This document shows, piece by piece, positions 573 through 63,931 of a stretch of DNA of 64,000 nt (the first letter of the stretch is position 1; each line of letters begins with the position of its first letter). A program made the position numbers and the translations under genes. The stretch covers positions 18,696,922 through 18,760,921 of the forward strand of contig NC_092678.1 in assembly GCF_964355755.1 (NCBI RefSeq), read 5' to 3'. Source of the DNA: Antedon mediterranea. Lineage: Eukaryota; Echinodermata; Crinoidea; Comatulida; Antedonidae. Under the pieces are notes generated by a model. The model saw only the letters and a program-made list of their open reading frames with translations. It had not been told where the DNA came from and did not search any database.

Positions 573-728
573 ATATAATTCCATGTGAAGAAATGCCATG
601 TCAAAACGGTGGCGAGTGTTTTGGACGACAACCACAGCGCCGGAAACGTCAGGAGTTCGAATTATTACCACCTACGCTAGCTGGCTGTTCTTGTTTGATC
701 GAATATACCGGTTTATATTGCGAAACAG
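573..728 (+). CDS. Gene 1 exon: EGF-like domain 1 with polybasic loop
   Basis: Phase 1-1 exon. Six cysteines fit EGF spacing (CEEMPCQNGGEC, then GCSC and a final YTGLYCE). An unusually long loop between C3 and C4 contains RRKRQ, a furin-type site. It is flanked by a polypyrimidine-AG acceptor and a GTATAC donor. This is the first exon I can support in the window. Confidence 0.75.
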
Positions 729-2313
729 GTATACACATTTACGTGTACATCGTATTATTTATTCATTCACAAATATTGTTCAATAGTATAGTAAACGAAT
801 ACCTGCAGCCCTATAATACAAAAACAAATAAAAATTTGTTACCGTAGCTATGTTTGAAACACTGTTACGTCGTCGGTTCCCACTTTACGTAATACAACAT
901 TTTGGGTCGATACGTCACTGCGTTACGTTGCGTTGCGTTCTAGTGGAAAGCACGCTTTATGATTGTTCAAATCACATACGTTGCATTACGTCCATGTGCT
1001 GTGTCTCCAGTGGGAACGAAGCATATTAATTACGTCTTCATTTAACTTTAACTTCCGTAATCTGTAGTCTTATGGGCCTCACATCAATTATTACAGTGGT
1101 AAAACCAGTCTTCTTATATGCCTATAAGGACTATAAACAGTGGTTCAAAGAATCTAGTACATGCTTAAACGAGAGGGAGATTACCCCGGTGAATAATGAA
1201 TAATTTGCGCTGTAGTTGGCAGCACCGACTTGACCCTTAGGAGAAAGCATTTAATATTGAAAGGTAGAAGTCCACATTGAGACAACATTAAACAAAGTAC
1301 TATAGGCCCATGTGCAATACAACACCCCACAATCACAAACGATCGATTTGTTATTAGATATTAATTACCTTGTATTACGTCATTGTTGTTAGGCGTATTG
1401 TGAATCAATTTTACTTACTCTTGGCCTATTGTTTTTTTATTTTTTCATTATTATTTGAATTGTTGAGAATATCATAACGCGTTACATTCTATAACCAGAG
1501 ATTTGTTATGTCATGTATATTTAGGATGATTATTGATATTGATAAATACTATATACTGTTTATTTTTACACTGAAGAACGACCGCCGTGTGAGTTGGAAT
1601 GCCAAAACAAGGGAAGATGCGAACTAAGTCCAGAATCATTCGATTATATTTGTCAATGCTCTAACAGGAACTATTACAGTGGCGAATTGTGTGAAGGTAA
1701 GTATAATGATAATTGTTATTTTCTATCGATTCTACCTTTTTCATATAAAAATATTCAATAAATTCACATAAAATAAAAAATTCACACTTGCCAAACAAGA
1801 CAAAAAGATCAATATCACTTGGCACTCATTCGAACCGGTCTTAAAATAATGACCCTTGTATACACGGGACCTAAACTTTATAATTATCTACCCTTTCTCT
1901 ATTCTATTAAACAATAAGGTAAATGTTCTTTATTTAAACATAAATTTAAACTATTATTGGTTGAAGGTTCTTTGTAATTTATTTTTACATATTGGATATT
2001 ATCTTTTATAGTCTATACTTGTTTTAATATGTAACCTTTTAAAAATATGTGTTAGCAGAGAAAACATAATTAGTTAGTAGGAAAACAATCTTCATTATTA
2101 TATGAAGTTGTTTAATTTTGTAATATTATTTCATATTTTTATTTTATTATATTATTCATTACAAGATATGCTTTTATTTATGCTCCTCCTCTATTTTATT
2201 TAAGTTATTAGTAAAGTGAAATAAATAAAATTAAATATTGCGGAACAACGTCCGGTTATTTTTCAGACACATTCTATTAATCTCTATACATTTCTTTATT
2301 ATTTGTCATAGTA

Positions 2314-2402
<89 letters not shown>

Positions 2403-5400
2403 CAATACATATTTAATATGATATCATGCTTTACTTACAGTGGCTTAACAAAATGCATTCATTACATTTTAACTGTATACGCAATGATATACATGCATAC
2501 ACACATATACAAACACAAAGTCTTTTAAAAATCATTTTTATATTTTGGACATTATTATCTAATGTATATTTTCTACAAACAGTTGTTGCACTTTGCTTTG
2601 AAATCGGCTGTGAATTTAATGGTATCTGTGATGAACAAGGCAAGTGTGTCTGTCCCGATGGGCGATACGGAGCATTTTGTGAACAAGGTACGGTAGTCTT
2701 CTTAAAGTCATTCAATTATGTGATAGTATCCGCTGCAATCCATTCTAATACTGACAAAATTTAAAAAATGTGCTATTGGTAACAGTCATTTGTGACTTTA
2801 ATTCATTAGGCCTATTACCCACTTGTTAAAATCACGTTCGCTGGCCATCACTCTCTAACTGTTTGTATTGGATGGAGTGTTTCGGAATACTGTTTTTTTG
2901 GTTTCAATCCTCACTTTTTTTTAGATTCTGTTGAAATAATCTTCCATCTCAGATTTAAGAGATCCTCTTGATAAGTTTCGAGAATTTGACATAAGTCTTT
3001 GTCAACACAATGTTCATACCTGAATTGTCATTTCCTTGGCTCTCGTATATGATTTTCTTTGTAATTGCATTTTTGAGAATTATGATTTGAAAATGTTAAT
3101 CATAATTGTTATTTCTTTAAATGATTTAAAATTATATTTTATATTTATTTGTAATTCTGTTAAAGGAAAGTCTTCCTATCGTGATTTAGTTCGCTTTTGA
3201 AAATTCTTGACATCGTGTTTACTTTGTTGTTTTGTAATTTTTCTGTATTTGTTGTTGTTCCAAAATTAAATAAATCAAAAAAAAAATTAATCAAACAATT
3301 AATGAATTATGGTTGACATTAAATGATGAGTATTTTATTTTATAGACATCTGTGACACAAATCCTTGTGCAAATGGAGGAATCTGTTTTCAGCCTACTGA
3401 AGCGTTTTCTGAAATTCAAATTGTTACCGATGAATTTTACTGCGCATGTGCACCGGGTTTCAGAGGTCCTACATGTACAGGAGAAATCGGTTTGTTTTAA
3501 AAATTATTAGTTTCAGTTAAATCTGCATTTATTCATTATGTATTCGTTATTCTGAAAATATAGAGTCAATCAACAACGATAGTGTAAGATTGGTGAGTGA
3601 AGTTAAAAATGCAGAAGTAGGCCTAGTAATTTTCTAGTGCGTATGATACAAGCCAACGCTTCTTTCTTTCGTCGTTTATCTACTGTGAATCTTTAATATG
3701 ATTTACCTTTAGTTTAGTATGATGGAGACAATCCTGATTTGAAATTCTATAAGGACCAAACAAATATAGACATAACTGTACCAGACGCCAGGCATAAACA
3801 GTGATATTTTTTCTATTGATATTCTAATTTATGTATTTCTACAAATGTATATTGATTATTTTTATAGTTGAATGTAGTCGTAATGAATTCGCCTGTGAAA
3901 GTGGCGAGTGTATCTCACTTAGCAAGATGTGTGATAATGTACCGTATGACTGTGCAGATAACTCAGATGAACCAGACGAATGTCAAAGTAAGGAGAAATA
4001 TAAATAATAAGTATGGTTAATTCCGACATAGGCGAGCACAATGTAAAAACTTCGGGATAAATCTCCGCCTTGGATACATACCTTATCTATCTCAGATGTA
4101 CCGCGAAACGTATATTTGATAACATTAGTTTCCACTATTACAATATTTTTCCATATTTCTATCTTAGAAAGATATTATAAAAGGTTTTGAAAAAAATAAC
4201 TGATTTCATCGGTAGATTTTCAACTGTGCCTGCTAGAAGTAATTTCCGGGTTCACGGTCGGTCCACGGATTCACATTGTATTAATAATTTTACATCATAT
4301 GCACAAACATTGATAAATTAGTGAAACACTACAAATTGGAATATGAGCTTGCCAAATAAACCACTTTTAGCGAAGCACAAAATGCGCAACATGGCTACAA
4401 CAATGAAATGTAATGTTTACGCATATTTATAATATTATATATATAATTATACAATCTGCAAAACAGTAACTGTCCCGCCAATAATATGTAGGCATATTTC
4501 TTAATATAGGCTAGTGACATAAGCAATCATAACGTTAAAACTTTGTAAACATATTGTTGTACTTACAAGGCATATCTAACTAATATTCAATTACATTTAT
4601 CCAAACTGCTATGACACACCGTTTTATTTTACTTTATTAGAAGCAGAATGTGACGACTTATTGCAACTTCTGAACGCTTTGACAGAAAGATGTGGGGAAC
4701 TCCAAACACTTGGAGCCTTTCCTACAGACAGTTTAGAATCGCAAAACGTATTTCAATTCAGTTTCGGAGGATCTGATTTTCCAGACGCTCCGACTATAAT
4801 AGCAAAGGTATAGAATTATTAAATTCATTATCACTGAGAATATAATGTACACAATTGCATTGTAACTAAATAACAATCATCGAACAAAACTGAGCTTTAG
4901 TGAGCAATATAATATAATAAGCAAACTAGCCTTATATAGTTTGGAGGTTTGCATGGCGAAATCAAATGTTGACTCCTGAGGACGATCAAAGCATATTGAT
5001 CGAAACGTCGAGAAACTCAACAGTTATTTTCAGAACTAACATACGTGGTTTACCGCAAACTTTATATCAACAAAATAACCTTCCTTTATAACAACATTAT
5101 GATTACTATGGTTATATATGTAATAATGATAATGACAATGTCGAATTTAATTTGAATGAAAGATTGTAAATGTACAGTCTGTCAATGCTTTTCAAAACTG
5201 TTATAGTAGTATGTATTTTAATCACATTATATAAAATATTTTGTTGTAGATTGAGATTGATATCTCTGAATACTTTGGAAATGAGATTAGAGAAACTGGA
5301 ACGCTGTTTGTAGCATTACTTTCATCGGATCCAACTGTTATTGAAATACCTGTTATTCATTTCAGGGTAAGATTATTTTTACATTCTTTTTATTGTTATG

Positions 5401-8400
5401 TAAGTATATGGTACAGTAATTTAGTAAATGCAACATTTTTAGCCTTGTGGCTACTTGCTGTAAGTTTTATACCAGAATAAATAAATAAATAAATAAATAA
5501 ATAAAAATACGCAATTACTACTCATTACGTCTTATTGTATCATTGACATCGTCCACGTCATTTTGTTGTGCTTTGTTTTTTTTCACCCGTTTCTCGGCAA
5601 CGAATCTAAATTTCTCCCAGTATCACCTAGTACCATGATACCATAACCTAACTCTTAATCTAACGTCGCATGATTCAGGCAGGCACACAAGTGATACTGG
5701 TACACATGGAATTCTGCATATTATTGTATGTAGATCTACATCTCTATAAAGATGCACATATATTTTTTGTTTTTTTTCTCCAGACACAGCTATATTTCTT
5801 ATTATTTCCATTATAATACTACATAACTGTACATAATTCTTGTTTTCTGAATTAATAAAAGCAAGAAAAGTCATTATTCCACTCTTTGATATAAAGCTGA
5901 TTAGATTCTGATTTTATTGAAATTTAATTTTCACTGTGTAATGAGCCCTATGTTATTATAATCTATATATAAATTTACGTAAGGGCAAAATTCGGTAAAT
6001 CGCACCTTACTTTTAGAATTTTTACTCGATGGTATATAAAGTTGGTTCGTACTTTTGATACTGATTTTAACCACCTGATGTAGCCCTGTTTACTAATTAA
6101 ATTATGTTAGATAATTAGTTATTGACGATTAAAACGAATTTAGGTTCAACGATTTGCCCCAAATAGGGGTGCTTTCCGATCGTGGTATACACTGTCTAAT
6201 GGATGTCCATCTTGAAAAATACCCGCCACAAAATTGCGAGGAGGCTTCGCATTTTCCTATCTCCTCCTACGATAATTGTTTTTAATAGCTGAAAACCCGT
6301 TGAACAGCTCGAGTACAGTATCATAATGTTGAAGACAGGCCGATTTTCTTAAAAAAATACTATTTTGATAGATTTAATATACGTTTATATAAATGTATTG
6401 ATTTGCAATGAATGGAACATCATTCCAATCTCTGTGTCGTTCCACAAGTGTCTATTCCCTCAGGCGTCGTAAAGGAAAGTACTGTATACTCATAACAGAA
6501 ATTCGATCCATTTTTTGTTTCAATCTGTGCTGCAGAGGTTGGATATCAAATCTTTATTATTGCAGTTAAACCACCCATAACATCACCCTTCCCTCTCACT
6601 GGCATGAGTAGCGTTGTAAAGACATAGTAGAGCTTGATAGGCTTACGGTGCATCATATGCCCTAAACGCAAAACAACTTTGGTGGGTAGGGTAGGAACCA
6701 ACTTAAGTATGACTTGGCTCTAAGAAACAATTAAAAACCATTAGGCCTACTAATTCAGTTGAATTAGATAATTTAATATTTATTGACGATTAAATCGAAT
6801 TTATGATTTTCCCCGAATAGAGGTGGTTTTCACAAATTGTTTTACATTATATAAACATACACGTCGTAGTGATGTATCGTTACATGTACTGCTATTTCAA
6901 TCTACTAGGACGGTGATACTGATATTTTCCAACAAAGTATTACATCGCAATGTTTTACTGTGTTTAGTGGTATATTATTTGTAAAACATGAAAACAATTA
7001 ATATTTTGTTACTAAATGGATAAAGAATATATTTAAAAATTGTTCCTCTTTGCACCCATCCTCTTCCCCATCCCTCACCCCTAATGTTAAATTACTATTA
7101 CAAAACACAAATTAAGTTTGTTTAAATTTGACTTAACAATTGGTCTCATTTTTTGACAATCTCTTTCGGAAGTAATTCCCAGGGTGCTAATTTTAGTTGA
7201 GTACATAAATCAGTGTCTATTTATTCGTTCCTGTGTAAACGACATGTATTATTGTACGTACATTTGAAATCGTCAGTTTTTTAACGCTGAAATTATTATA
7301 TATTCGAGAACCATCTGTGGGCACGACCTAGATGATACGCGAGCGAAGCGAGCGTACCATCTAGTATTAATAATTTATTAATATAATAAAACCAATATAT
7401 TTTTCAGGTATATTTTGAAAAAGAGGTGGAATCAATGATCTTAGAGAAAAACCTGTCTGATATATTCAGTGTTGTTCAAAATGAGCCTCAAGACGTCTGG
7501 TTATCATTTCTTCCTGATGGCGACACAGAACACATTCTACTACCATCGTTCTCGTGTTTCATTGAAGAATCGTCTTGCTTCACCATGACAACAAGGTTAT
7601 TTATTCCGCACTGTGATGATCTTGATTCTAAATGCCTTGACATATATGCAGAATGGGTACAAGCCACTGACGACTCGAGAGATTACAATTGCGGGATAGC
7701 TTCGATTGATACTGTTGTTGAACCATTGTTTGACCAGTGTCTTGGTAAGTAGGCCTAGGCCTATATCAAACACCTGTTGCATAGTTCAATCATTGTCTAT
7801 TGCCGTTAATTTGTACTGCTGTTTCTCTCTGAAATTATTATTATGATACTTAAAATTATACAAAAATTATATCTCCCTAGATTTAAATAAGCACGCACTA
7901 AAATTATAATGAATGTCATTTACTTCACGATTATTTACATTTCTGCATTTATAGGTAAATTTAAGAAAATTTAGTGGGCCTATAAGCAAAATGTACGTAC
8001 AAAAGTGTCGATCTTTAACAAATGTAAAACGCTGCCGTGTAATTTGCATATTGAATCGTCCCAAGCTTTACTGGCCTCAACAACACGTGCCTCAACATAC
8101 AGAATAGGAGTTGTTTTGCTTGTTAATGTTCGAATGTAATTACTTACTGTATCAAATGATTGCCTCGAACTGCGCCCCGTAGGCTGTATAATAATAATAA
8201 TAATAATAATAACAATAATTGTTCACGTTTTTTTTCTGTTGATAAATATATCTAACCATGTATATTCTTAAAACACGTTTTGTAATTATATTGTTTTTTC
8301 ATTAGTTGCACCAATTATTACATCCGTCAGTGGCTCGATGAGCATCAGTTTAGAAGAAAGTGTCACATTATACTGTGTGGCGTCTGGAGTTCCATCAGCA

Positions 8401-11400
8401 ACTGTCCAATGGGCAACGGTTACTGATTCAGGTGAATACGTACCTGTTACAGCGCCTTCTACCGCTCAGTCAGTGTACGAAATAATGGATTTTTCTGAAA
8501 CAACGTAAGTGTGGTTTTTTTTAGTGAATTGTATTTCTAATATATTTAATGTTAAAATATTTTTTTTTTAAACTATCGATAATTTGCTTTACGTTATGTA
8601 AAATTTAATTTGTTGATATTTTTCGTGTTGACTTCCTCAATAATTTTATTTTAAGAAATTTTAAACTATTTATATCAATTTCATTAAAATAGTTACTATC
8701 ATCATGACTTGAACATATTTTAATTAATAACTTTTGGTTATCTTACCTTGCTGCTATTTTGTAGATATGTAAATGTTAATGCATTTATATTCTAGATATG
8801 TGTGTCAAGTTGGAAATATAGCGGATACAGAACAAAGTGAAAATGTAATTATTTCAGTAGAAGGTAAAAATAAAACCGTATGCGATTCTAGTGGAAAACA
8901 AAGGCGCTTTAAAACTGGTTTTGATTTAAATAAGATGGCCTCAACTATTTGATTACAAGTAAGCGGCTTCTTGGAAGGATGGCGGCCTGTACTGTTGTAT
9001 TGTTCTTTTCTGTACTGTTGTGCATGCGTAAAATGTTAAACTAATGACAGGGCTACTATTATTCATTTTAGTATTTATGCTTGTGCATACTTACATCATC
9101 ATAATCAAAAGTTTTTTTTCATCCAATATTTTCAGACGGTTCCTGTACAAATTATTATGCGGCAACTCGAAGCTTTTTCCAATCCATGCCAGAATGCTAC
9201 AATATGACTATGACCTTTATCCCGCCAACTAGTCAACGTGGAGGTTCTCTTTACATTAATAATTTTGTTCAAGGATCTGTTTTATACAGTGTTTCATTCC
9301 CATCGTCTAATATTGTCATCGGTAGAGGACTAGAGTTTGGAGAGGGCTCTTTCAGTTCTAGAGTAACAGTCTATGAAGACGTCATTACCTCCATAGAAAT
9401 CACTATATTGAATCTAAATACAGGTGTTACTATCTATGCTGAAACCTTTGACGGTATAATAATTACTCCTGAACCAGACATATTTCAAATTGACCTGACA
9501 TTTGATCAACCAATCAAAATCAACAGCACGTCTACGTATGAGATAGAGTTGTCTATTCGTTCGGAACCAGACGTTGGCCTGTCAAACGAGGCAATCTCAG
9601 TGAATGGTTTTACTTGTGAAAAAAGCTCACCCGAATGTTTGCAATTCTTAAGTGACTGGAACAGACTCGTGCTAGACCAGGTTGGTGCTGGTTGCAGTCG
9701 GACAGACGTCGAATTTCCCTCACTTAAACTTTGCTTCGGAGAGTTCTTTGAAGGTATGTTTATGCGCGTTGTTTATATAACTAGGCCAACTATTTAAAGA
9801 TATTTAATATGACCCCTGTATGTTGAATATTATTTTAATGTTACTAGTTATTCATTCTGACCAAAATGAAAACTGCAATAAAGCAAAACATAGTCAAATT
9901 GACTTCCAGTCAATTTTTTTTTGGTTGAATTTAACGGTTTATTTGTCTTTTTATAAATGAAAACATTAGTTAGTGTTTTTTAGTACTTGATTAAAACTAA
10001 GAAATGTCCTATTCAAAAACTTTTTTTTAATAATCTTCATTTTTCTTGTTTTTTAGACAATACATATTTAAAACATACATGATTACAAATACACCCTCCC
10101 CCCTCTTTTTATTAACTTACTGTACGTTTGGTACAGTTTATGACATTTTTTTATCAATAAAAAAAACCCATTACACTACTTTACAATTTAAGCCTGTTTT
10201 CCTAAATGCAATATTCATTTGATTCGATACATTATTTGTGTGCGCTCATTCGTTTATTAATATTTCATTCCACTTCATGTGGTGCAAAATTGCATAGCAA
10301 ATCAGAGTTCGTGAATGTTCGCCTAGTACATTATAATGCTTAATACATTTAAAAACAATTTTGTTAATTTGTGTCAATTTTATTTTCAGATCCTGAAGTG
10401 GTACGTCATCCTGAATCGCAAGCTGCTGAAGTGGGCATGGCAGCTATATTAGAATGCAATATAGAGAACGTTGAGTTTTATGAATGGTTTAAAAACGGCG
10501 GCCGTATCGCTAGTGGTGCTGATGGTCCTGTTTACAACGTACAGCTAGACCAAGGTCAGAATCAGGGCGACTATTCCTGTTTTGGATATAGATCTCAGGA
10601 TAGGAAAGATGCAAAATCAAACTCTGCAACCGTTCTAATCTCGGGTAAGTCTGACCTACTGCTAAATAATAAGATTATAATTACTTTAGGTTTCCGTATA
10701 CTGCACTTAAACACAAATCAGAAACGAGTTATGATGTTATTAGTGAGGTTTTGCAACCTTACAAATACGATATCGAAAACGGATACGGTTCACATTTGTG
10801 AAAGTTTTGAGCTGATCCCCATATCATATTCGTAAAGCGTATTCGTGTTGACGAATATCACCAGTCATATTCGTAAGTACAAAACAAGTATAGTTTTGAT
10901 CTATTTTGCATTTGAATCAGGAATTTATGATTATAATATAATTATAGATTTATTAAAAGTAATTTACTAAAGTAATTTACTAAAATGATGCCAGGTCAAT
11001 TTTGATAAATAGCAGTTTTAAAGTCCTTACTCGCTTTGATGTTACGCTATGCCGAGGCAGTCAAGAAACATGTACATGCGCTTTGCCCTCAATATTTCTT
11101 TGCCATGCGAAACAGATTTTTACTGGCTTACGCGTACGAAAACGAATACGTGTGCGTGACGTATCCGTTTTCGTTATCGTATTCGTAAGATTGTGAAACC
11201 TCTCTATTATCGTAAATGTAAGTCAATTGTCACATGCTATTCTAAAGTTTGAAAATATTTACTATTCATTTTTCTATCGTTCCTACCTGAACAAAAAACC
11301 TGACATACTTTATATCAATTGTAATACCGTAACAACTATTTATGTATATACGAAGCAATAGTGTTTTTATAAAACATTACCACTTTCTTTCTGGCTGTTC

Positions 11401-14400
11401 CATTATATCACTTGTTTATGTTTATTTTATTTGTATTTACATTGAGATCAGCCACTGATACCAACATCATTTAATAACTAACATTATTATGAACTATTTA
11501 CTTGGGCGTTTCTAAGAATAATTATTAATGACACTGTTTTGATATTAAGTATATTGTATTCTTCGTCTTCTTACATTTTCATTCTCATTCAATATTTTTC
11601 ATTAGGTCTGGCTACTTTTAGAGCACTCGCTAGATTCAACATTCCTTTCGAAGATGACTATGCAGACAGAGAAAGTCTGGCATTCAAAAATTTCACAGAT
11701 GCGTTGGAAGCTACTGTAAGTACATTTGAACGGTTACCGGTTTTGGCTCTTCATCAAAATACTATTGTCGACAAAAAATATAAATAATAAATATGCAAGA
11801 TGTTTTATAGATAACAATCAAGAATATTAATGGTAAATGATACTTGACTGTACAGAAAATAATATTCTTAAACTATACAGAACAAAATTATGTTAAAAGG
11901 TGTTCAGCAAAAATTTAGTTATAGACAAATAAGATATATGAATATACATTAACTACACATTTAGTAGATAGTAAAATAGATAGATAGCTAAATAGATATT
12001 AATAGAGGGCAGCCGACAATCTCAATGTTTGCGCTGTCCAACTTTCATCACGTCTAAAAATGATTGTGTTTTGAGAAAGTACTGTGCATACATTTCCGAT
12101 TCCGATAATGTTTAGAACAATTTTGGATCAAAAACATAGTATTTACTATTTGTGTAATGTATGTATTACTTATTGATAGTAACGAATACAAATATATTTA
12201 TTTCAGTTGTCTGCAAGCCTGCCTCAATCATTTGAATTCTTCGTCACGAGTCTGGAATCCGGGAGTGTCATTGCTAATATGGATTTATACTTCAACCAAG
12301 CCCAAAACGCAACCACTTACAGTTCTATGATAAATGATTCCCTAACTACATTGGAAGGGTATGAGACGGACCCTGAATCTGTTGTTGTTACAAGTATATG
12401 TAAGTACATATTAGGCCTATAAGGTTGAAGATAAAGTAATGTATTATATAAACATGTTGTAACCCAAAACACTATCGCATAATAATATTGTATTGCCACA
12501 TGATTTAATTAATTGTCACTATGCATGTAGTAACATTGTTTATTTCCAAATTAATATAATATTCAATATTTTTAAGAGTGCTGTTTCTATATTATAATGG
12601 TTAGTACATTAAGTTTTATTTATGAAAAAATCTTTTTTGAAAATGTTAGATATTTTGTCCCCAAAACATGAAAACAAAATTTAATTCAAAAAACTTTCAA
12701 TAGGTCATCTTAATTCACTTCGACCGGAACAAATATTTGTTAATGAAAATATGTTTTTTCCGATTCGACCTCTTCTATTGTCAGAATCTGTCGTCTCACT
12801 TGGCGTCTCATAGATAGAAATAGAATCTGTCGTCTCGCTTGGCGTCTCATAGAGAGAAATTAATAATGCAAAATATATAAAATATTCATTCTAATTATGA
12901 AATGTTTTCTTTTTTTTAATTAAGCATCTTGTGTTGGAGAGGACATTGTGATTGATGGCACTTTGTACACTTTTGAAGATGCTCCACTTGGTGTCACTGC
13001 AGATTCGTTACAAGATTGTCCGCTATATTCAGACCAAGGTAAATAACAAGACTATTAAATGCTGTTATTCTATAATTGTAACTTAGGAATATCATGGAGT
13101 AATAATAAGTTTATTATCAATAGTATTATGCCTACTCCATGGTAATATGCCACGTTATCTCTACTGAATGCGCACAGTACATTATTGCATACAATACAAT
13201 ACAATTTTTGTTTTCATTTTGTTTACATTAGGCAAAACTGTTTCTCTTGCGACCCGATACTGTGGTGGAGACTTCGTATCAGGAGCTCTATGGGAATCCA
13301 TCGTTATCACAGACTGTTACATTGGAACGACTTCAATGCAAATACAAATGATAGATGAGGTATCAATAACTTTTTTTTAAATGTATAGATATAATAGAGA
13401 AGTTTGGATAATATGTTCTTTTCTACATTAATCAACTACATTGAGTACGGTTTTTGAAGGTGTTGATTGTCTCTGAAATGACAAATCTTTCTTTCATTTA
13501 CTAACAAAGTTATTCACATTTTAAATATAAATAAAACATAATATATCAAGGAAGAATAATAGTTAATAAACGAGGGCAACCTTTCTAAACTTAATAATAT
13601 ATAAAACATTTTTTAAACTTCTCAAATATAATTCACTTTTGAAACACGAAAATAATTACCTTAAACAAACACATAATATTCTTTCTTTTTTAAATGCTGA
13701 GTTTCATAACAACATTAATTCCACATCTTTGCACCAGAATACCATTCCCATAGAATTTTGTTCGATATTTTGGTATAGGCCTACACAAAATTGTGACCTT
13801 GTTGAATAATGAAAATTAATGAACAAAAATATTGAAAAGTTGGAGGTTCACCATGTATACTTTCATGACAAATAAAGTAGTTAAATACTGATATTGTTGA
13901 TTTATTCTAAGTTCTTTAAATAATAATGATGTGGATGCTAATCTATCCGAATAACTCAATTTGCGTAGATGTACTGTTTCCTCAATCTTCTAATGCAAAT
14001 GATATATGCGGTAAAATAAATTATATAAAAGCACGAGAATGGTTGTAGTAAGATTGTTATAATGAACTTTCCCTGTAAGTTTATGTCTATATCTCCTCTG
14101 GAAAATTGTTCCAATACGTAATCACTTCACGTAATAACTTCTAGCTCAGACCGGTGCTTATTTATTTATTTTATTTTATTCAATCAAAACCAACAGCGAT
14201 GATTACCGCCACTAACAGGTTTTATACAAACAAAGTCAGGACTGTTTAAAGCACCTTGATCGGTCCTAACATTGATCAAGGGCTTCTCTCGTCCTGTGCC
14301 CACCTTGACCAGAGGAAAGGCATAAGCCAATACGTCTGAGACAGATACTAGATGCAGGGCCTGCCATAAGAGTCAGCAGTGCTGATTTCAAACGCCTAAC

Positions 14401-21314: not shown

Positions 21315-21785
21315 ATGTGTGGTACAAATATGTTTTGGAGAAAGTGGACAATTTCTAAAACTATTAACAGTATCAGCTTAGTTTATCTTATAGGATTATG
21401 TATTGAAAGCAGTAGATGCCAATTTGGTACAGGTAAAGCGTTATGGTTATACACAATATTAATGTTTTGTGTGGATCTTGATTAATTGTCTCTATCTAAA
21501 ATTACGTCAGCAAAATTCAGAAAATTGCTCGAAAAATACGATCGGTTTTCAGCGATGTTTGAGACCCTATATTTAGGGGACTACAAGTAAGATTGCCATA
21601 ATCTTTTCTTTATTATAAAGTGCATAATTTGATTTAAAAATATTAACTTTTAAGTTTCCATCGTTATCCTTAATAGAAGAAACGAGCCAATCAATCATTC
21701 CCAGTGGCGTTTCTAGAAAAATTAGCAGGGCAAGTTAAGCCGCCGCCAGAAAAGCATTGAACTTTTTATTAGTTCTTTATTAATT
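20700..21785. repeat. Segmental duplication, copy A (includes gene 2 exon 1)
   Basis: This aligns by eye with about 24900-25925 over most of its length, for example ACTGGCATGTGGCCGTAA, ACACACCAGCCAGTTGAGAG, AGTAGATGCCAATTTGGTAC and AGCAGGGCAAGTTAAGCCGC. It continues past the transposon at 21797-22642 to about 22800, matching about 26535-26740. The two copies flank the lectin exons of gene 2. Confidence 0.75.
21315..21432 (+). CDS. Gene 2 exon 1: signal peptide
   Basis: The ATG at 21315 opens MCGTNMFWRKWTISKTINSI, followed by the hydrophobic stretch SLVYLIGLCI and ESSRCQFG. A basic N-region, hydrophobic core and small or polar residues fit a secretory signal. The exon ends in phase 1 at a GTAAAG donor, compatible with the lectin exon at 22941. 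Met-6 is an alternative start. A decayed copy with a stop lies at 25483-25545. Confidence 0.6.
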
Positions 21786-27700: not shown

Positions 27701-30700
27701 TAGCACAATTTTAACATACTCATTACACTGATATGTCCGATTCTCACTTCCGAGGTAAAGATGTGATAGGTTTTGTACAGTATATATACCAATTATATCT
27801 ACTTTAAAGGGAAACAAGGTTGTTATGTATACTTTGCTTGTTAATGTGTATATTTATCAGTTATGTCTTATTAGCGGACAAAAATGACAACATGGAAATT
27901 ATGTTGATATCTTATCTATTTCAGTATTTAGTAATTATGTGTCTAAACGCACTTAAATGAACTTACTAATCATGGATGTATGATTTATTTTACAGATAAT
28001 ATATGTACCACAGATCCTTGTGAAAATGGTGGCATCTGTTTCGAGCTTTCTGATACTCAAACTGTAACAAATAACTTTTACTGCGCATGTCCTCCTGGTT
28101 TCCGAGGTCCCACATGTACAGGAGTAATCGGTTTGTGTGTTTTTTTTATATTATCATTTAAAGGACAACATTACCAACAACCATATTTTGACAACGTAAA
28201 AGAGATGTACATTTAATTTCAGAACAATTGCAAAATTTACGATATCGCCGCGTTCGCTCGCCGTACAGCCGTCGCCGTAAATTGATGTGACGTCAAGTGT
28301 GATTAGCAAAATCTACTTCATGAGTTTCAATGTTTTTATCATACAAGAGACCGTTACCCGTCATTTCAATTTCTAATTTTACCTGCATTAGGCTTACATT
28401 TACCAAAATATTCAGTATGTTATTTTGAAGAAACACTTTAATATCCAGAAAATGTACAATAAAACAACTTAGCATTTGCATCTTTTACGATTTATTTAAA
28501 AATTTGCAAAATATGGTTCTTTGTAAAGTTTTCCTTTAACAATTTATTATCTATTTAATACTGACTCTGAAGTCTAAACTATCAAACAACAACTTTTAAA
28601 ATACTGCGAAGATACGATGGCGACCAAAGTAGACTCGAATATGACTCGACTCGGAATCGCGAAAAGTATAATGTCGGTACAGGTACGTTATGAATTGGTA
28701 CATTACAACTCAGGTGTATGACTTAGGTACAATATTACTCGGGCAGAGTATTACTCGGGCAGAGTATTACTCAGGCACAGTATTACTCGGGTGGGTACAG
28801 TACTGGTACTGTATGACTCGGGTGTATGACTTCGGAACAATATTACTTGGGTTATTACTCGGGTACAGTATGCCTCGGGTACTGTATGACTCGGGTGTAT
28901 GACTCGGGTGTATGACTTAGGTACAATATTACTCGGGAAAATTATTACTCGGGCACAGTATGACTAGGGTACTGTATGACTCAGGTGTATGACTTAAGTA
29001 CAATATTACTCGGGTACAGTATGACTCGAGTACTGTGTGACTTCGGTACAGTATGACTCGGGTACAGTATGACTCGAGTACTGTATGACTCGAGTACTGT
29101 ATGACTTGAGTACTGTGTGACTTCGGTACAATATTACTCGGGTACAGTATGACTTGGTACAATACAACTCAGGTACGACTTCGGAACAAAATGACTCGGG
29201 TATAGTATGACTTGGTATAATACGACTCAGGTACGACTTCGGTACAGAATTACTCGGGTATAGATGACTTGGTATAATACGACTCGGGTACGATATCGGT
29301 ACAATTATGACTTGTTTAAAATGTTGATTAAATTATTGCTTCTGTAATTATTATTCAAATTGTTATTATAGTTGGATGTGGTCGTAATGAGTTCGCCTGT
29401 AAAAGTGGCGAGTGTATCTCACTTAGCAAGATGTGTGATAACGTGCCGTATGACTGTGCAGATAACTCTGATGAACCAGACGAATGTCAAAGTAAGAAAA
29501 ACAAATGTTAGACCTGACTCTACGAGTGTTATTTTATTAACTTGTCTATTACCAATGGTACCTGTTTCAGAAATCCTGGATCTGCCACTGAAACCTAGAT
29601 GCTATAAATTTAAATATCTGTTTCTTTAATAGAAAGAGAATGTAAAGATTTAAGTCAACTTCTGGACACGATGACAGCAAGATGTGCTGATGTTAAAGAA
29701 CACAACGTCTTTACATTTGAAGGCTCAGACTCTCCACACATATTTCGTTTCAATGTCAGAAGATACTATTTTCCAGAGGGTCTAAATACAATAGGAAAGG
29801 TATAGATTTAAATTTGTTCAATTACATTTTCGAAACATTTTTTGGATATCCAAAAAATGTTCATATCTGTAAAATTACACTCGTTTCACATGCACAGCAC
29901 ATCGACATTCTCCGGGATAAACCCGAGACACAACGCTCTTTTCATCCGGCAGCTAAAGAAAAGTCTTCTGCAAACAAATTGTATCGCTAACAGTAAAGGC
30001 CAACCTAATTGTTGGATTATTGTTTTAATGTGTTTATGTTTTTTGTATAGTACATTATGAATAATGGTATTTTAAATATTGCAATTTTTTCAATAGATAG
30101 ATTAGTTTATATTATGTAATGCTCATTTGTCTTTGAACAAATACAGAGATATTTAAATTTCAATTCAATCAGGATAAATTGAAAATAATGAAATAGTCCA
30201 CAGAGCTCTGATCTTCATGAAATAGCGCTATAATGTCGCATTACATTACATTATGATTTTAAATTCCTACTTCCATTTATTTAATGTAACCTACGTTTTT
30301 TAGTCAATAATAAATATTAAAAAAAAACAGTAAAAAATTATTTTGATTTCACAAGATTGAAGTTAATATTTCTTCATCTGTTGGGAATAAGATAAGAGAG
30401 GACGGAACACTGTTTGTAGCCTTATTGCCATCTGAGCCGAACGTCTTTGAAATACCGGTTATTCATTTCAGGGTAAGATAATTATTAAGTAATTGTATTC
30501 TCTATAAAGTATTCCACAAACTGCATGGTTTGTTTTATATTCTTCGTCTACTGTCCTGAAGCGACAGCTCGTTACAGGGGAATGAAACAAACCATCATAT
30601 TCCGATTGATGTTATATTTTTTCTCACCTGACTGTTTGTTTAAGTAGTAGAGGTTTTTAATTTTACAATAACAACAATAAATAGGTTATACCAAGGAGGA

Positions 30701-33700: not shown

Positions 33701-36700
33701 GCGGACAAAACATTTATATTGATCATACATTCCAATAATTATCGATCTATAGTTTCCACTGTGTTTCATAATTTTTGGGATTTTATTTGTGTTACACGAG
33801 CTTGTTGAAAATAAGCACTTTCTTATCAGTGTGGGGATAGTTCAAAATACACAATAAAATCTCAATTTTTTCGTACACAAATTTTGTAAATAGAGAAGCA
33901 TTTTAAAAAGCTATGAAAAATAAACAGTGTGGTAAAAAATGTTATCAGATGACTAAATAATTATAGGTAATATAACTTGAATTTTACATTTCTGGTAATT
34001 TTATTCAACTTCAGATTTTTATTTTCATGCTATAGCAAAAATTATCCACCGTATATCCACCATATTTTTTCACCTTCTAGGGAGTCACCAGACATGTTAT
34101 TACATTAGGTTAAACTACCTAACTACTGAAAAAAAGTCTTCCTGGTTTTTATGTCAGAATTTTGCCAAATTTTTTATTTGACCATATTAAGGGAAATTCA
34201 TGTTTTTTCGTCTTGATTTCTGTTACAAATATTTGATTTATGTACAATTAAACAAATATTATATTTAAAATTCATGCCTGTATCTGAGCTTTAAAAAACA
34301 AACGCATGCGCATGCTTATTTATTATTTCCTTCTACTATTTGTGATTCAAAATAATACGTAAATAACAAGAGCTCAGTAATATTCGCTTAGTGGAAAACA
34401 GTTTAATCAATATAGTTGATATTAAGTTTGTATTTTGTTTCAATCAATTTTATTTTAGATCCTGAACTCGTTCGTCACCCAGAATCACACGTTGCTAATG
34501 TTGGAAAAACAGCTACATTGGAATGCAATATAGAAAACGTAGAGTTTTACGAATGGTTTAAAAACGGCGACCGTATCCCCAGTGGTGCTAATAGTCCTGC
34601 TTACAACGTACAACTAAAACAAGGCCAGAATCAGGGTGATTACGTCTGTTTTGGATATAGATCTCAGGATAGGAAAGAGGCAAAATCAAACCTTGCAACC
34701 GTACTAATCACAGGTAAGTCTAGTGTTATGCAATGTTTCTAAACAAATCCGTTTTCTATATACCGTAGGCCTATTAAAACTTAAAAAGAGAGATCAGTGA
34801 ACATATCATTATGTAGGCCTAGGTCCACTTGTAAATCCATTTAAACTCAATGCTATTTTCACACTGCTATCTCTTATTACTTTTTCCTGCTCCAGTGCAT
34901 TATAAAAATTGAAGATCGTGTTAACGGTAATGATGTAGCTCATATATTGTATGCCCATTGTTTTACAAAAATGAGGATCGTGTAGGCCTTTTACCCAGAC
35001 CAATCTGCTCGAGGCGGGAACAATTGACCGCACAATTTCGGAACTGCGTGTACATCACGTGCATATTCGATGAAACTGCTTCTTGTTTAACATTCCATTA
35101 CTCGTTGGTATTAGTATCTTCTTATATGGTTGATCTTGACATATCTTTCGTACATTTTCATTAGAGTTGTCAACTTTTAGAGCACTTGCTAGATTCAACA
35201 TTGTTTTCGAAGATGACTTTACAGACAGAGAAAGTTTGGCGTTCAAAGGATTTGCAGATGTGTTGGAAGCTAATGTAGGTTTCCTACAATTTCCTAAAAA
35301 TAATTATTACTTACTTTATTTTTAACTTTCGTTTTTACAAAAAAAAATGACGTAACGAATTCCTGATTCTGCTAACAGTTTATTTATTTTATCGATAATA
35401 GTAAAATGCAATTATTTTTGTGTCAATTAATAAAAATATAAAATGGGAACTACATTACAACTAATAAATATTTTTTAGATATTCATTTTTATTGGTGGTG
35501 TTGGAGGGCAAACTATATTTTGGCTTAACTATTTATCTTACAATACTATAGTAATATACAAAATGTGTGCATTAACATATTAACGTAATGTGTTGTATGT
35601 GTATTGTAATTTTTAAGTTATGTGTCTATCTTATTTGTAATTTGTAATTTTTATCTTTTATTTTAAAATGTGTGGAGAAACTAATAAAACAAAGAAATAA
35701 AACAAACAAACAAACAAACAAACAAACGTAAAACATGAATAAAATGTATTTCAGTTGTCTGCAAGTCTGCATCAATCATTTGAATTCTTCGTCAAGAGTC
35801 TTAAACCCGGAAGTGTTATTACAGAAATGGAGTTATACTTCAACAAAACACAAAATGCGACCACATACAGTTCGATGATAACCGATGCTCTGCGAGTGTA
35901 TAATACGGACCCTGAATCTATTGTTGTTACAAGTATATGTAAGTACTTAAATGTATACAAATAAGCTAACGACAGACTATATAGCATATATTAGAACAAT
36001 AATATACAAAGGCTAGAGCAATAAGATAAGATTAGATTTTTACTGAAAAACATTAGATCAATTAGTCAAACTTAAACTAAACATAGGTCATAGTTCATCA
36101 AGGACATACTGCAGTCAACCTTCTGGACGTCTGAAATGGATAGCAGGAATAATGCATGAGATATCAGACCTTTTTCCTAAATATAAACAAAAATACCATA
36201 TCATGAGCCAAGCCGTTTGCAGATACCCTTTGGTTGGCCCTATAACTTGTTGATCTCTGCCTCATGCTCTATGTATATATAGCGTCCTCTAAAATGTCCT
36301 TCCCATATTATTTCATGAATTATTCATATTAATTTCTACTTCAGACGTCTAGAATAATAAAAAAAATCGCATCCGAGCTTTCATATATAATTACAGTAAA
36401 TCTTAATAATTATAAATATGTTTCTTAACAAAGCATCGTGTCCCGGAGAAGACATTACAGTTGATGGCATTTTGTACAGTTTTCCAGATGTCCAGCTTGG
36501 TACAACCGCAGAATCACTACAATACTGCCCTCTATATTATACAGATCAGGGTAAATCTTTTAAAAATAATAGTAAATGTTCTTCTTACAAAATTATATTT
36601 TTGAAAATCTTTAAACTTTTACAGTAGCTAGTACAGCAGCTAGTACAGTAGCTAGTACTTCAGCCACTACTGCAACATCAAAGGTTTTTTTTTTAAATAT

Positions 36701-54930: not shown

Positions 54931-55268
54931 CAAACTGTAGTTTTTACTTATTTTCCAGACTTAACGTATATATTTTAGCTCTACTTTACCGTATTGAGCA
55001 CTTTCTAGACGGTTACATTGAACCGAACATTTATATATATATATATATATCTTATTATAAATGTGATGTGCTGATGTGAAACCTTTTTTGCTAAAACTTA
55101 ATTCGCGTAGTGGCAATAAGAGTTAGGCAAGAGACTTCCGTTGGCGTGCCTCATCCTCATGATGAGACATAAATATGGGTCCCGTGTACACATTTTATAC
55201 AATTAGTAATATTTTATTGTAGAAGAGCGTTATATAAGAAAGAGCTATCTCTTATGTAATTATAATTA

Positions 55269-57412: not shown

Positions 57413-57818
57413 TATGCCTACATTAAACCACTAAGTTTCCTGTTCTACTTATTATTATGTTATTTTCCCCTGATTGCATTGCTAACCGATATTATGTAGG
57501 CCTAGGTTCATTATGCGACTTTCAAGGAAATTTAAAATAAAACAAAACACAAGATATTGTATATTATAAGCGATGTATTTTTAAAATGAAACTTCCAAAA
57601 TTCTATAAAACATATTTAGCTATTATGATCTAGTTTTATTTTTATTTAAACTGAAAGCTAAAAAAACATTATTCCAAGAAATTACATGACTGTTTATTTG
57701 TTCTCATTAAGGAAATAAACTTTAATATGATAAAGTAAATAAGTCAATATTATAATGTTTAAGTGCATTTATGTGAACATTTTTAAAGAAGAAACATCTC
57801 TTCATTAAAACTGAGTAA

Positions 57819-57903
57819 ATGTATACCAGATTGATAACCGTTGTTATTCTTGCACTTCCATGGGTTGCATGGTCATTTGATCACCAGGTTTATGAGCAAT
57901 GCT
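57819..57903 (+). CDS. Gene 4 exon 1: signal peptide
   Basis: MYTRLITVVILALPWVAWSF, then DHQVYEQC, ending in phase 1 at GTAAGT. A short basic start, strong hydrophobic core and AWS|F-like cleavage region make a convincing secretory signal, and the ATG is the only sensible start. Confidence 0.85.
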
Positions 57904-60900: not shown

Positions 60901-63900
60901 CATGGCGTCGCTACGAGTGTAAATACGTGTTACTGAATAATATGTGTGCAAATCTGATGGAAGTTGGAAGAAAAGAAAAAAAAACAAATGCGGATATAAA
61001 ATAAACACGCTAAATGCACGAACATAGTCCTACTGCGTATAACCATTTCTAAACTTGCCTTTAAAGTGATATATAATCTATATATAAATTTACGTAAGGG
61101 CAAAATTCGGTAAATCGCTCGTTATTTCTAGAATGTTTACTCGATGGTATATAAAGTTGGTTAGAATCTCGGTACTGATTTAAACCACCAGCTGTAACCC
61201 TGTTTACTAATTAAATTGAGTTAGATAATTAGTTATTGACAATAAAAACGAATTTAGGTTGAACGATTTGCCCCAAATAGGGATGTTTTCCGACCGTAGT
61301 ATACACTGTCTAAAGCTTGGTTCCCACTAGAACGTAACGCAAGGACGTCAACGCAACGCAAGCGTTTAACCAATGACAAGCGAAGTTATAGACAGTTAGC
61401 AATCACAAGCGAATAAGCCATCGCTTGTGATTGGTCAATTCACTTGCGTTGCGTTACGTCCTTGCGTTGCGTCTCTAGTGGGAACCAAGCATAATGGATG
61501 TCCTCTTAAAAAATACCTGCACACAATAATACGAGGATGCTTCGCATTTTCCTATCTCCTCCTACGATAATTGTTTTTAATAGCTGAAAACCGGTTGAAC
61601 AGCTCGAGTACAGTATCATAATGTTGAAGAAAGGCCGATTTTCTTTAAAAAATACTATTTTGATAGATTTAATATACGTTTATACAAATGTATTGATTTG
61701 CGATGAATGGAACATTCCAATCTCTCAGACTCTCAGTTTGTAGGTAAATTTATGAGCCCTCCATGGTTTAACACAAGTAGGTAAATGTATGGGCCCTTTG
61801 AGAATAAACTTAAAACTGAGATATAGCATTGCAATACTTTAACAATATTGTAAATACTGTACGTAATAACCATTTTTGGTCGCCATTTGAATCGAAATGT
61901 TCTTACTGTGAATGTGATTACTGTTTATTAAATTAATTAGTAATTATAAAAAATATAAACGTCGTAGTGGTGTATCGTTACATGTACCTTACTAATTCAA
62001 TCGACTATAATAGGGACAGATTTATTTTTTTGGACTCATTTTAAGACAAGTTTCTCCTTCGGAAGTAGGCCTAATTCCCAGTGTGTTAATTTTTGTTGAC
62101 TACATTAATCATCGTGTCTATTTATTCGTTTCTGATAATGTATTTATAGTCCTGCGGTACGTACATTTGAAATCGCCAGTTTTTTGACGCTGAAATTACT
62201 GTGTATTTGAGAACCATCTAGTTAATATTAATGAACTGTAAATAAATGGATAAAAATTATTTATATTTTTGTAATACAGGAAAAAATGCTTCTCTTGCGA
62301 CGCGACACTGTGCTGGAGATGTCTTAACAGGAGCTGCATGGGGATTCATCATTGTAACAGACTGTGGAATTGAAACAACATCAAGCAAAATACAAATATT
62401 ATATGAGGTAACACAATGTATCATTACTATTTGGTACCACATGTACTTAAGTATTAGTACTACTACACGGTAAAATGTTATATGCATTGGTAGTATTAAA
62501 ACGTTCTAGTGCACTTTCAAATTTCAAAAATTGTAGTTGCGAGCCTGTAGACTACTGTATTTTAATTCGAGTCCGCGCCTTGCAAAATATAACTGTCAAT
62601 ATTTTAAAGCATAAACTGTTTTCCCCATTAAACTCATAAACTTTCAATATTTATCTTTTTATTATCTTACTGTTAACAAACTACACATAATGCAATAATA
62701 AAAATGGATAGATAATGAAAACAAAGAAACATTCAAGTGAAACAAATACATTCTCCTTAAGCAATACCGGAATCCTGTAGACTTTCTTAAATGTTTTTAT
62801 TTCCTTTTTGCCAGACTAAAGTTACTGAAAATAATAGTGTTGCTGTAGCCAATGATCTTGCATACCTCACAAATAATACGGAAGACCTTGATGAAGAGAC
62901 GGTTCAGTTAGTTGCAGAAATTTTAAAAGATATCGTTAATCTCGAACTACCTGATGAAAACGTAATTTATCTTTTTTAAACCAATCATGATGATGCTTTT
63001 TAAATAGAATGTAAAGAAATTACTTATTCTCTCCATTTAATTTATAAGCAATATTACTTTATTTTATTTTACATAATTGTTCTTAAATAAATGTATTACT
63101 TAATCTGCTGCTTCTATCTTTCATCAATGTCAAATGTTAGGTGGAAGACTAAAACAGAACAGTTATAGACGAGGCACAATAGGCATATATTTTGGTTTTT
63201 CCAAGCCTACAATCCACATCATTTCGTTGAAAAAACGTCTCAAAAGCTTACGAAAAGCTAAACAGTCAATAACTTTCATTATCAAATCCGTTAGTAACCA
63301 AGCAAATTTCACGGAAACATATAGTTGTTGACACATTTGCCTTACCAAAACCAAACTATTCTTCTTCTAGATAACATTAGATGTGGTTGAGGTTGTTGAT
63401 AACATAATCGATTCTGGTGTGTTTGACTCCGAAACATCAATGAGAGAAACGGCATCCTCATTTGTGACATCACTAGAAAGACAACTCGCAACAATGGCAG
63501 TGGAAGGCATTAACTTCACCAGTGTACAACCACACGTTGGTGTGATGACTCTTGCCATCAACACGGCATCTCTTGTGAATGATTTAGCATACGTTTCTAT
63601 TTCAGACGGTGACTCGCTCAAGACATTATTCGAAGCAGATAATATAAATGCACATTATGAGAAGACAATCCCTTTAGAAATGGTTGGTGCTTCCATCGCA
63701 CTTTCAACCGAGGTCATCTCAATTGATCAGAATAAGACGAGAGAAGACGAGATCCGAGTTTATTTTACAGTTTACCAGAACAGTTCCTTGTTTATTTCAA
63801 AAATGTTGGTTAATGATTCTAGCGAAGATTTACCGCCTCAAGTTAATAGTCACGTCATTTCCGCTTCAGTAGATGCAATTGAAATTGACGGGTTGGTAAC

Positions 63901-63931
63901 CCCAATAAGGGCTGCGTTTTTACCACGTTTT
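57819..63931 (+). CDS. Gene 4: adhesion GPCR with fucolectin-type head (3' partial)
   Basis: Spliced model with exons 57819-57903, 58512-58658, 59495-59569, 59952-60182, 60623-60799, 62280-62407, 62815-62961 and 63371-63931, about 517 residues in frame. The last exon ends at a GTAAGT donor, and the GPS and 7TM exons lie beyond the window. One intron (60183-60622) uses a GC-AG donor. The head is an FTP/F5-8C lectin domain; the HRM and GAIN exons match the other genes. The assignment as an aGPCR rests on the GAIN and HRM homology. Confidence 0.85.
57928..58256 (+). mobile_element. MITE with TTAA left end (piggyBac-like family)
   Basis: The left TTAAAGATTTATTGTCCCCC and right TTTTTGGGGACAATACATCC form inverted repeats. 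The interior matches 19731-20089 in opposite orientation. The right TTAA is mutated. It lies in the first intron of gene 4. Confidence 0.65.
58512..60182 (+). CDS. Gene 4 exons: fucolectin/FTP (F5/8 type C-like) domain
   Basis: Exons 58512-58658, 59495-59569 and 59952-60182 give about 150 residues. Landmarks are VCSHTDEENEPWWYVNLQDN, YVVLFNR, DRLEGAQVRVGTN and a final CEVKIYGS. The HT...PWW-V-L, NR and RL-GA-VRVG pattern is that of fucolectin/tachylectin-4/pentraxin-1 domains. The usual R-x-D-C-C stretch after FNR is changed (RQTTQDR) and lacks the vicinal cysteines, so fucose binding may be altered. Exon 59952 ends at a GCAAGT donor. Confidence 0.88.
59033..59165. repeat. Fragment of the TTAA-flanked MITE family
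   Basis: TTTAAATTACAATTTATTTC...AGATCCAATTTTGGTCAAAG...CATGTTCAAC matches part of 19731-20089. It is a partial copy in the gene 4 intron 58659-59494; nothing else is seen in that intron. Confidence 0.45.
60623..62407 (+). CDS. Gene 4 exons: hormone-receptor (HRM) domain
   Basis: Exons 60623-60799 and 62280-62407. The first adds a linker (EADLDILTTVVTVTDDITSP) before SICIGEDQNVNGTTYSFPDV and DCPLYSNK. The second reads SLATRHCAGDVLTGAAWGF and DCGIETTSSKIQILYE. The intron between holds a Helitron-like element. Confidence 0.8.
61077..62221 (+). mobile_element. Helitron-like element, copy 4, interrupted by a MITE
   Basis: Begins TCTATATATAAATTTACG after A61076 and ends GAGAACCATCTAG before T62222. 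The 3' GC-rich hairpin is missing: a deletion joined two ACCATCT words. A 178-bp MITE sits inside at 61314-61491. Confidence 0.8.
61314..61491. mobile_element. MITE with TAA target duplication (PIF/Harbinger-like)
   Basis: The ends AGCTTGGTTCCCACTAGA and TCTAGTGGGAACCAAGCA are inverted repeats, with TAA on both sides (61311-61313 and 61492-61494). Sister Helitrons have TAA once at the same place (CTGTCTAATGGATG in copy 1), proving the insertion. A 3-bp TWA duplication is typical of PIF/Harbinger. The interior is a long palindrome rich in GCGTTGCG. Confidence 0.88.
62815..63931 (+). CDS. Gene 4 exons: GAIN domain
   Basis: Exons 62815-62961 (147 nt) and 63371-63931 (561 nt). The second is six bases longer than in the other genes because of two extra residues near FDSETSMRE. 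Markers are ELVAEILKDI-like helices (QLVAEILKDIVNLELPDE) and EIRVYFTVYQNSSLFISKM to AAFLPRF. The GPS exon should follow beyond the window. Confidence 0.87.

Follow-up and report, generated by a model that had tools for sequence, protein, structure and literature searches.

The diversity of the outer parts of adhesion G protein-coupled receptors (GPCRs) is credited to domain shuffling, on evidence that consists mostly of comparisons across phyla, and modules that start and end in phase 1 are the rule in shuffled extracellular proteins. We describe here a stretch of 64,000 nucleotides of the crinoid Antedon mediterranea (C9:18696922-18760921 of a 354-Mb assembly, C9 being contig NC_092678.1), hereafter the window, which contains four tandem adhesion GPCR genes, A to D, all on the + strand. 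They belong to a close group of nine copies, A to I, lying on one strand over approximately 0.3 Mb; copy counts come from a genome similarity search and are lower bounds. We propose, with a probability of roughly 0.77, that the locus is a tandem array in which one ADGRG-like receptor has been duplicated repeatedly and the distal extracellular part has been replaced in most copies. Domain shuffling in this receptor class is known already, and what is new is the repeated head replacement within one array; a literature search, carried out largely without subscription papers, showed nothing, among the papers listed, on crinoid adhesion GPCR arrays or on head exchange within such an array.

The receptor ADGRG6 (GPR126) has the order CUB-pentraxin-SEA-HormR-GAIN. 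The vertebrate ADGRG2, ADGRG4 and ADGRG6 possess the same HormR-GAIN-GPS-7TM core as the crinoid genes, two of which (A and B) also have a SEA-like domain before HormR, and our profile search was led by ADGRG2 and ADGRG6. However, no Pfam match to a CUB or pentraxin domain of the ADGRG6 type was obtained in A to D, so that the order of an ADGRG6 ortholog is not found, and the crinoid stalk, unlike ADGRG6, is made of EGF, LDLa, two Ig and modules without an assigned kind. Amphioxus adhesion GPCRs carry Lectin_C, LDLa, Ig and other unusual heads, which the accessible part of the source ascribes to domain shuffling (PMC2246102); as far as this part goes, the set comprises a receptor family and a ten-gene expansion with Kringle and Somatomedin B, and not one array of alike cores with different heads. 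For the HRM-GAIN-7TM receptors of choanoflagellates and early animals, duplication followed by domain shuffling is proposed in the accessible part of PMC12716839; the core module is the same, but shuffling is inferred there over deep time, whereas the crinoid copies show a silent divergence of about 0.1-0.9. Among echinoderms, P0012, P0014, P0016 and P0018 are receptors of this kind as well, their heads being HYR, Sushi-LDLa, IgGFc-binding and HYR, respectively; they come from other classes as individual annotated proteins and show 33-39% identity to gene C over 82-87% of the latter.

Four receptors with a common core

The four genes were modelled from splice sites and similarity. Since the AG/GT sites were picked to keep the frame, that agreement is built in, and the real tests are the open frame, the equality of phases between copies and conservation. 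A single open frame runs across the exons of gene A (573-18628, 23 exons in the window, 5' end open), gene B (21330-40508, 23 exons), gene C (45747-51905, 10 exons, first exon not found) and gene D (57819 to beyond the window end, 8 exons in the window). The exons of the HormR-GAIN-GPS-7TM core are common to the four genes, with equal phases and nearly equal lengths, the last ones of D lying just beyond the window. The second HRM exon measures 128, 128, 119 and 128 nucleotides in A, B, C and D, the first GAIN exon 147 nucleotides in all four, and the second 555 nucleotides in A, B and C and 561 in D; the GPS (153), TM1 (119), TM2 (263) and TM3 (67) exons are identical in length in A to C, and TM4 varies (511, 517 and 496). 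At the DNA level, A and B are similar in 21 blocks over 20 shared exons, and their introns are mostly unalignable. The models are thus independently supported by the open frames, the phase equality between copies and the confinement of the A-B similarity to exon blocks, and the description given by the initial annotation, of four neighbouring genes with common core exons, is borne out.

In gene A, the HormR (HRM) exons, recognised by profile and fold matches, lie at 12925-13038 and 13232-13359, the modelled GAIN exons at 14622-14768 and 14959-15513, and, both from Pfam, the GPS exon at 15711-15863 and the 7TM exons at 16418-16536, 16795-17057, 17818-17884 and 18118-18628, the last with the stop. 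The same exons of gene B are found at 36434-36550 and 36722-36849 (HRM, from the models), 36976-37122 and 37477-38031 (GAIN) and 38496-38648 (GPS), these from Pfam and the models, and 38867-38985, 39140-39402, 39544-39610 and 39992-40508 (7TM, Pfam). Those of gene C lie at 46751-46921 and 47392-47510 (HRM), 48485-48631 and 48745-49299 (GAIN), 49480-49632 (GPS), and 49997-50115, 50508-50770, 51208-51274 and 51410-51905 (7TM). Gene D has its HRM exons at 60623-60799 and 62280-62407 and its GAIN exons at 62815-62961 and 63371-63931, with GPS and 7TM following beyond the window (C9:18761037-18764398). The translation of gene A agrees with the annotated A. mediterranea protein P0083 (100% over 83% of the model), and that of gene D with the annotated P0005 of the same species from the second fucolectin exon onward.

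Pfam families above their cut-off in the A to D set are 7tm_2, GPS, Lectin_C, CBM_14, LDLa, Ig_3 and EGF. The 7tm_2 match reaches 154-160 bits in A, B and C and 135 bits for D through P0005, and the GPS match 58.6-62.1 bits in A to C and 59.5 bits in P0005. In an alignment of 29 GPS rows, H488, T490 and F492 are invariant and L489 and A493 nearly so; we take HL|T in the GPS exon of A to be the cleavage motif, and TNFAILV is presumably the tethered-agonist segment. The HRM domain of the initial annotation stands on other grounds than Pfam, where HRM (PF02793) stays below the cut-off: of three pieces (A with GAIN, B and D) only B was listed, at 15.3 against 26.2 bits, and the whole A to D proteins gave no HRM match. 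The HormR identity comes from profile and fold matches to HormR-GAIN structures. With the structure model of P0005, HormR-GAIN of ADGRG6 (6v55) was in the top tie of fold matches, and the GAIN region matched 6v55 and 4dlq; the head (residues 1-127) has a predicted local distance difference test (pLDDT) score below 50, and the model is uninformative on it. A structure model of P0084, an EGF-stalk protein of another crinoid, Anneissia, had a mean pLDDT of 35 and was set aside.

We propose the following course of events. One ADGRG-like receptor with this core would have been duplicated again and again, A, with its many EGF on an LDLa-Ig-SEA-like stalk, being closest to the parent form. Copies B, E, G, H and I would have retained the stalk and bear another distal head, and C, D and F would have lost it, their CBM14 or fucolectin-type head sitting directly on HormR. 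A module would enter the intron after the signal-peptide exon with the frame intact, a replacement made easy by head exons that start and end in phase 1. Each protein would then be cut at the GPS, its head staying tethered, and signal via the same tethered agonist and 7TM, in which case the copies would differ in grip and not in signalling. In the accessible parts of two sources, receptors of this class are described as being cleaved in GAIN, carrying a tethered agonist and binding partners with their outer domains (PMC13197933, PMC12716839), and from this the copies are predicted to have the same output with different partners or anchors. Nine close copies gathered at a single site, with six or seven head kinds on much the same core, make this locus suited to seeing how animal receptors acquire new recognition parts, as the breakpoints, the module sources and the effect of the head on a constant signalling core are directly studiable at this array.

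Heads and signal peptides

The N-termini differ as claimed at first, with EGF in A, a C-type lectin in B, CBM14 in C and a fucolectin-type domain in D, all above the Pfam cut-off, that of D both in P0005 and with its first exon added. The in-window part of the head of A consists of EGF exons at 573-728, 1577-1696 and 2583-2687, which have a counterpart in Anneissia P0084. Five further EGF matches lie upstream of the window (C9:18691608, 18692741, 18693922, 18694964 and 18695508), and the signal-peptide exon is at C9:18681556. Gene A thus has nine EGF modules, four exons in the window, the fourth being the first stalk exon (EGF4), and five upstream; by eye, P0084 has eight before LDLa.

The signal-peptide exon of B (21330-21432) has a phase 1 donor and, some 55 bp ahead of the ATG, a TATA-like box. 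Over the window, the strict signal-peptide rule gives two matches on the + strand and one on the - strand, so that a lone match means little; this exon gains support from its likeness to that of A (52% over 31 residues). The C-type lectin domain is encoded by two exons, CTL1 (22941-23195) and CTL2 (24406-24525), both 1-1, with a Lectin_C match of 72 bits and PDB matches to DEC-205 and the mannose receptor. It keeps EPS, NEN and WND, which we take to be the residues of the second calcium site, and from its sequence the domain looks able to bind calcium and sugar. The promoter and signal-peptide block of B is present threefold around the lectin exons (25059-26060 against 20912-21748); the two downstream copies, between the lectin head and EGF4 on the + strand, are broken, copy 2 (25059-25917) being frameshifted and copy 3 (about 25940-26060) having no in-frame ATG. 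This triplication may record the arrival of the lectin exons. A 90-bp piece in the lectin intron of B (23390-23474) is 86% alike to one upstream of the CBM14 exon of C (44176-44265), with inverted partial copies beside each.

The head of C is a CBM14 (peritrophin-A-like) exon (45747-45917, 1-1), with a CBM_14 match of 37.1 bits against a cut-off of 22.1 and a match to PDB 6so0 (E 0.0016). The CBM14 chitin-binding domain has six cysteines; that of C has only four. In gene D, the signal-peptide exon (57819-57903, phase 1 donor of score 8) was found by a relaxed rule only; it draws support from the signal-peptide exon of copy F, which it resembles to a degree that none of 2000 shuffles equalled. 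The fucolectin-type head (F5_F8_type_C_2) occupies three 1-1 exons (58512-58658, 59495-59569 and 59952-60197), the first of which was recognised through its counterpart in F. Against a cut-off of 27.8 bits, the score rises from 22.6 for a rough piece to 28.2 for P0005 and 42.3 with the first exon added. The head belongs to the fucolectin fold family (FBP32 3cqo, E 1.1e-29; 1k12, E 1.8e-6). The fucose motif of F-type lectins is His-Arg-Asp-Arg; compared with 1k12, D keeps both Arg, has Glu for His and lacks the Asp, so that two of the four positions are lost.

Joining of heads to receptors

The initial annotation had named, as the observation that would overturn it, lectin, CBM14 and fucolectin exons belonging to separate genes. 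For D this is contradicted by the annotated P0005, which begins with the second fucolectin exon, continues through 7TM and thereby joins the last two head exons to the core. For relatives of A, Anneissia P0084 joins an EGF head to the stalk and the first HRM exon (HRM1), and in Anneissia P0010 the stalk is continuous with HRM, GAIN, GPS and the beginning of 7TM. The alternative still stands for C and, to a lesser degree, for B. In its explicit form, it holds that some heads are small secreted proteins, consisting of a signal peptide with the C-type lectin before B and with CBM14 before C, and that the receptors B and C start downstream. It would account for the frames of CTL2, which meets a stop after two codons if its donor is unused, and of CBM14, which also stops soon past the donor. 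However, both donors have a score of 11, which occurs 0.64 times per kb, and both have the phase 1 that the join requires, and in D, which shares this layout, head and core are joined in P0005. Moreover, the lectin exons lie between EGF4 and the only intact signal-peptide exon found for B, and a separate lectin gene would leave the B receptor without any intact signal peptide found, both downstream copies being broken. We therefore consider separate secreted heads improbable. The splicing of the lectin to the B receptor is suggested by position, phase and the placement of the signal peptide, and CBM14 would be joined to C on the evidence of phase, strand and distance (approximately 830 bp).

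Several points weigh against the proposed joining of heads and cores, in addition to the stop in CTL2. Among the matches listed, annotated proteins correspond to five of the nine close copies (A, D, E, G and I); only that of D joins head to core, those of A, E, G and I starting within the stalk or GAIN with no head, while B, C, F and H had none among them. For C, no signal-peptide exon was identified, a relaxed search giving weak candidates only, and the signal-peptide donor of D is weak. The models and joins were read from genome and annotation.

A further alternative is one gene complex with exchangeable first exons, in which the head of one copy would be spliced onto the core of another. 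It agrees with the fact that the heads and cores read lie on one strand and use phase 1, but each head has its own core directly downstream, stop-bearing terminal exons close A, B and C, and A, B and D each have their own signal-peptide exon, which makes it very hard to credit.

The stalk of A and B

Genes A and B share eleven exons between the head and HRM1, namely EGF4, LDLa, e6 to e8, Ig1 (two exons), e11, Ig2 and a SEA-like domain (two exons), none of which was found in C, D or F. With a stalk in A and B and none in C and D, the exchange point would be located before EGF4 in B and before HRM1 in C and D. The stalk is retained in A, B, E, G, H and I, six of the nine copies, which differ distal to it, and C, D and F differ from HRM1 outward. 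The picture of a constant chassis with swapped heads has accordingly to be amended: the core is constant and the heads differ, but the constant part is unequal. Likewise, the 1-1 phases claimed for the head exons are found in all 17 module exons of the models (EGF1-4 and LDLa of A; CTL1, CTL2, EGF4 and LDLa of B; CBM of C; the three fucolectin exons FTP1-3 of D; the four HRM1), whereas the stalk is 1-1 only as a block (e6 1-0, e7 0-0, e8 0-1, Ig1 1-2-1, SEA-like 1-0-1).

The stalk of A extends over 3346..12399, with EGF4 at 3346-3489, LDLa at 3868-3987, e6 at 4641-4807, e7 at 5250-5366, e8 at 7408-7744, Ig1 at 8306-8504 and 8796-8863, e11 at 9136-9753, Ig2 at 10390-10644 and the SEA-like exons at 11606-11715 and 12207-12399. 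That of B (27996..35938) has EGF4 at 27996-28130, LDLa at 29372-29491, e6 at 29633-29799, e7 at 30356-30472, e8 at 31093-31405, Ig1 at 31995-32199 and 32330-32397, e11 at 32939-33595, Ig2 at 34459-34713 and the SEA-like exons at 35165-35274 and 35755-35938. The SEA-like domain of A scores 24.1 bits, under the cut-off of 26.4. Exons e6, e7, e8 and e11 (e11 of about 205 residues) matched no Pfam family in A or B, although six copies and Anneissia retain them; the difference between A and B is greatest in e6 and e8. Exon e11 of B contains an in-frame 12-bp repeat (33027-33067, Thr-Pro-Gln-Pro repeated), which A does not have, and minisatellites occupy 28697-29304 in the EGF4-LDLa intron of B.

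Direction of change and gene conversion

A tree built from 23 core sequences separates the nine copies, as one group, from the Anneissia copies with a support of 81/96 (74/90 in a 16-sequence tree), and the branch of A is the shortest within this group (0.019). Anneissia P0004 and P0084, the latter with EGF head, stalk and HRM1, are on contigs of equal size (90,869), and we infer that they are two halves of one A-like Anneissia gene. Since the EGF form recurs in Anneissia, the EGF-stalk form is probably the parent, and the other heads probably came later, as replacements after duplication. Against this direction of change, the support for the group of nine is only moderate; inside it only G-H-I is resolved, so that the number of replacements is not fixed, and G, H and I form one clade, all with HYR, whose heads may be one. 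The grouping of C, D and F, which would mean a single stalk loss, and that of D and F gave p-values of 0.417 and 0.447 in the approximately unbiased test (p-AU), and are neither shown nor rejected.

If the head types were instead old, the receptor lineages would predate the crinoid split and the chassis would have been kept alike by gene conversion. The moderate support for the group of nine leaves room for this, and in the pairs A-B, A-E and B-E the core has a lower silent divergence than the stalk, as expected from conversion (A-E, 0.40 against 0.71, 95% range of the difference 0.17-0.45). However, core and stalk are not clearly different in A-G, B-G, E-G and G-H, and H-I is reversed; patchy gene conversion would give such a mixture. 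In addition, the core of A is 82% identical to Anneissia P0004 and that of D 64%, which indicates that the chassis has not been evened out across the whole array, and we regard an old origin of the heads as quite improbable. A tentative extension of our reading, doubtful as it is, would make the locus a standing head workshop, with a fixed promoter and signal-peptide exon at one end and a fixed stalk or core at the other, locally copied and partly evened by conversion, and the phase 1 intron between them as a landing site used repeatedly, within one lineage, by unrelated modules.

Selection and the nature of the partners

The ratio of nonsynonymous to synonymous divergence (dN/dS) was calculated as pairwise Nei-Gojobori averages, which do not resolve single sites. 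It is 0.33-0.41 over the stalk (eight pairs) and 0.17-0.22 over 7TM in seven of eight pairs, with 0.37 in the youngest pair, H-I; over stalk, GAIN with GPS or 7TM it is at most 0.41. The HRM exons range from 0.11 to 0.89, the maximum being the A-D pair (79 codons), and no pairwise value exceeds 1. For seven of the eight pairs, the 95% range of the stalk-to-core ratio does not fall below 1, H-I being unresolved. The core is more constrained, and nothing points to an arms race.

These data bear on the view that the locus is an immune pattern-recognition array with heads selected for microbial glycans. The C-type lectin, CBM14 and fucolectin-type folds, the calcium-site residues kept in B and the HRM value of the A-D pair are in its favour, and ADGRB1 is named as a binder of bacteria in the accessible part of a review (PMC13197933). 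In contrast, five of the nine copies have EGF, FN3, HYR or MAM-CUB-HYR heads, which are general adhesion modules, the fucose motif of D is altered, and dN/dS stays low outside HRM; such an array is unlikely. The emphasis of the initial annotation on glycans and microbes reflects the copies that fall in the window and is not retained: lectin-like heads are present in four of nine copies (three of the six or seven types), one of them, F, a pseudogene. With these proportions, the lost positions in D, the four cysteines of C and dN/dS below 1, the case for microbe sensing is weak. It is no less probable that the receptors contact several partners in the matrix or on surfaces; a role in immunity or in gametes is neither demonstrated nor excluded.

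The array beyond the window

The survey of the flanks, proposed with the initial annotation, yielded the nine close copies and added FN3, HYR and MAM-CUB-HYR to the heads, which gives six or seven types (six if the head of G is the end piece of that of H). Copy E (18772-18793 kb) has eight FN3-like exons before EGF3; of the five given to Pfam, four exceed the fn3 cut-off. Copy F (18795-18802 kb) has a fucolectin-type head like that of D, and is a pseudogene since most of GAIN2 and the GPS are missing. Copy G (18875-18894 kb) has an HYR exon; the interval 18871-18892 kb gave no MAM or CUB like those of H, although the reading upstream of HYR extended over 4 kb only. Copy H (18911-18940 kb) has MAM, CUB, LDLa (by eye) and HYR exons, and copy I (18961-18984 kb) MAM, CUB and HYR in the 6 kb read; in both, a segment of the stalk (from e6 or e7 to e8) is repeated ahead of EGF4. 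Phase 1 candidate sites occur at both ends of all 15 head exons chosen (seven of E, one of G, seven of H), and in 12 it is the sole phase listed; this set does not include the five upstream EGF matches of A, any exon of F or I, or the remaining two FN3-like exons of E and two MAM pieces of H.

Copy I has two consecutive GAIN2-like exons (C9:18977779-18979056), each 77% identical to that of A. A fragment right after D, D' (C9:18766667-18769875), has incomplete GAIN2, GPS and TM pieces and resembles a pseudogene. Outside the array, partial matches to the close group are found at C4:13802163-13803593 (with stops, 63-77%) and C2:26694183-26695208 (64-67%). Four distant copies, W1 to W4 (18602-18672 kb), have a core 40-45% identical and group with Anneissia P0011. 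By eye they share outer exons (WIPVFKGVSG..., not seen in W1, and GWTVVV...), for which two pieces tested gave no Pfam match. A dispersed repeat of about 1.4 kb, with pieces 69-96% alike on both strands, lies in introns and between the array genes (window 5956-7376, 55767-56978 and 61072-62219; C9:18626916, 18658213 and 18815051) and looks like a mobile element. Between W1 and W2 (C9:18614034-18617056), long frames resemble, by eye, an endonuclease and reverse transcriptase of the long interspersed nuclear element (LINE) type.

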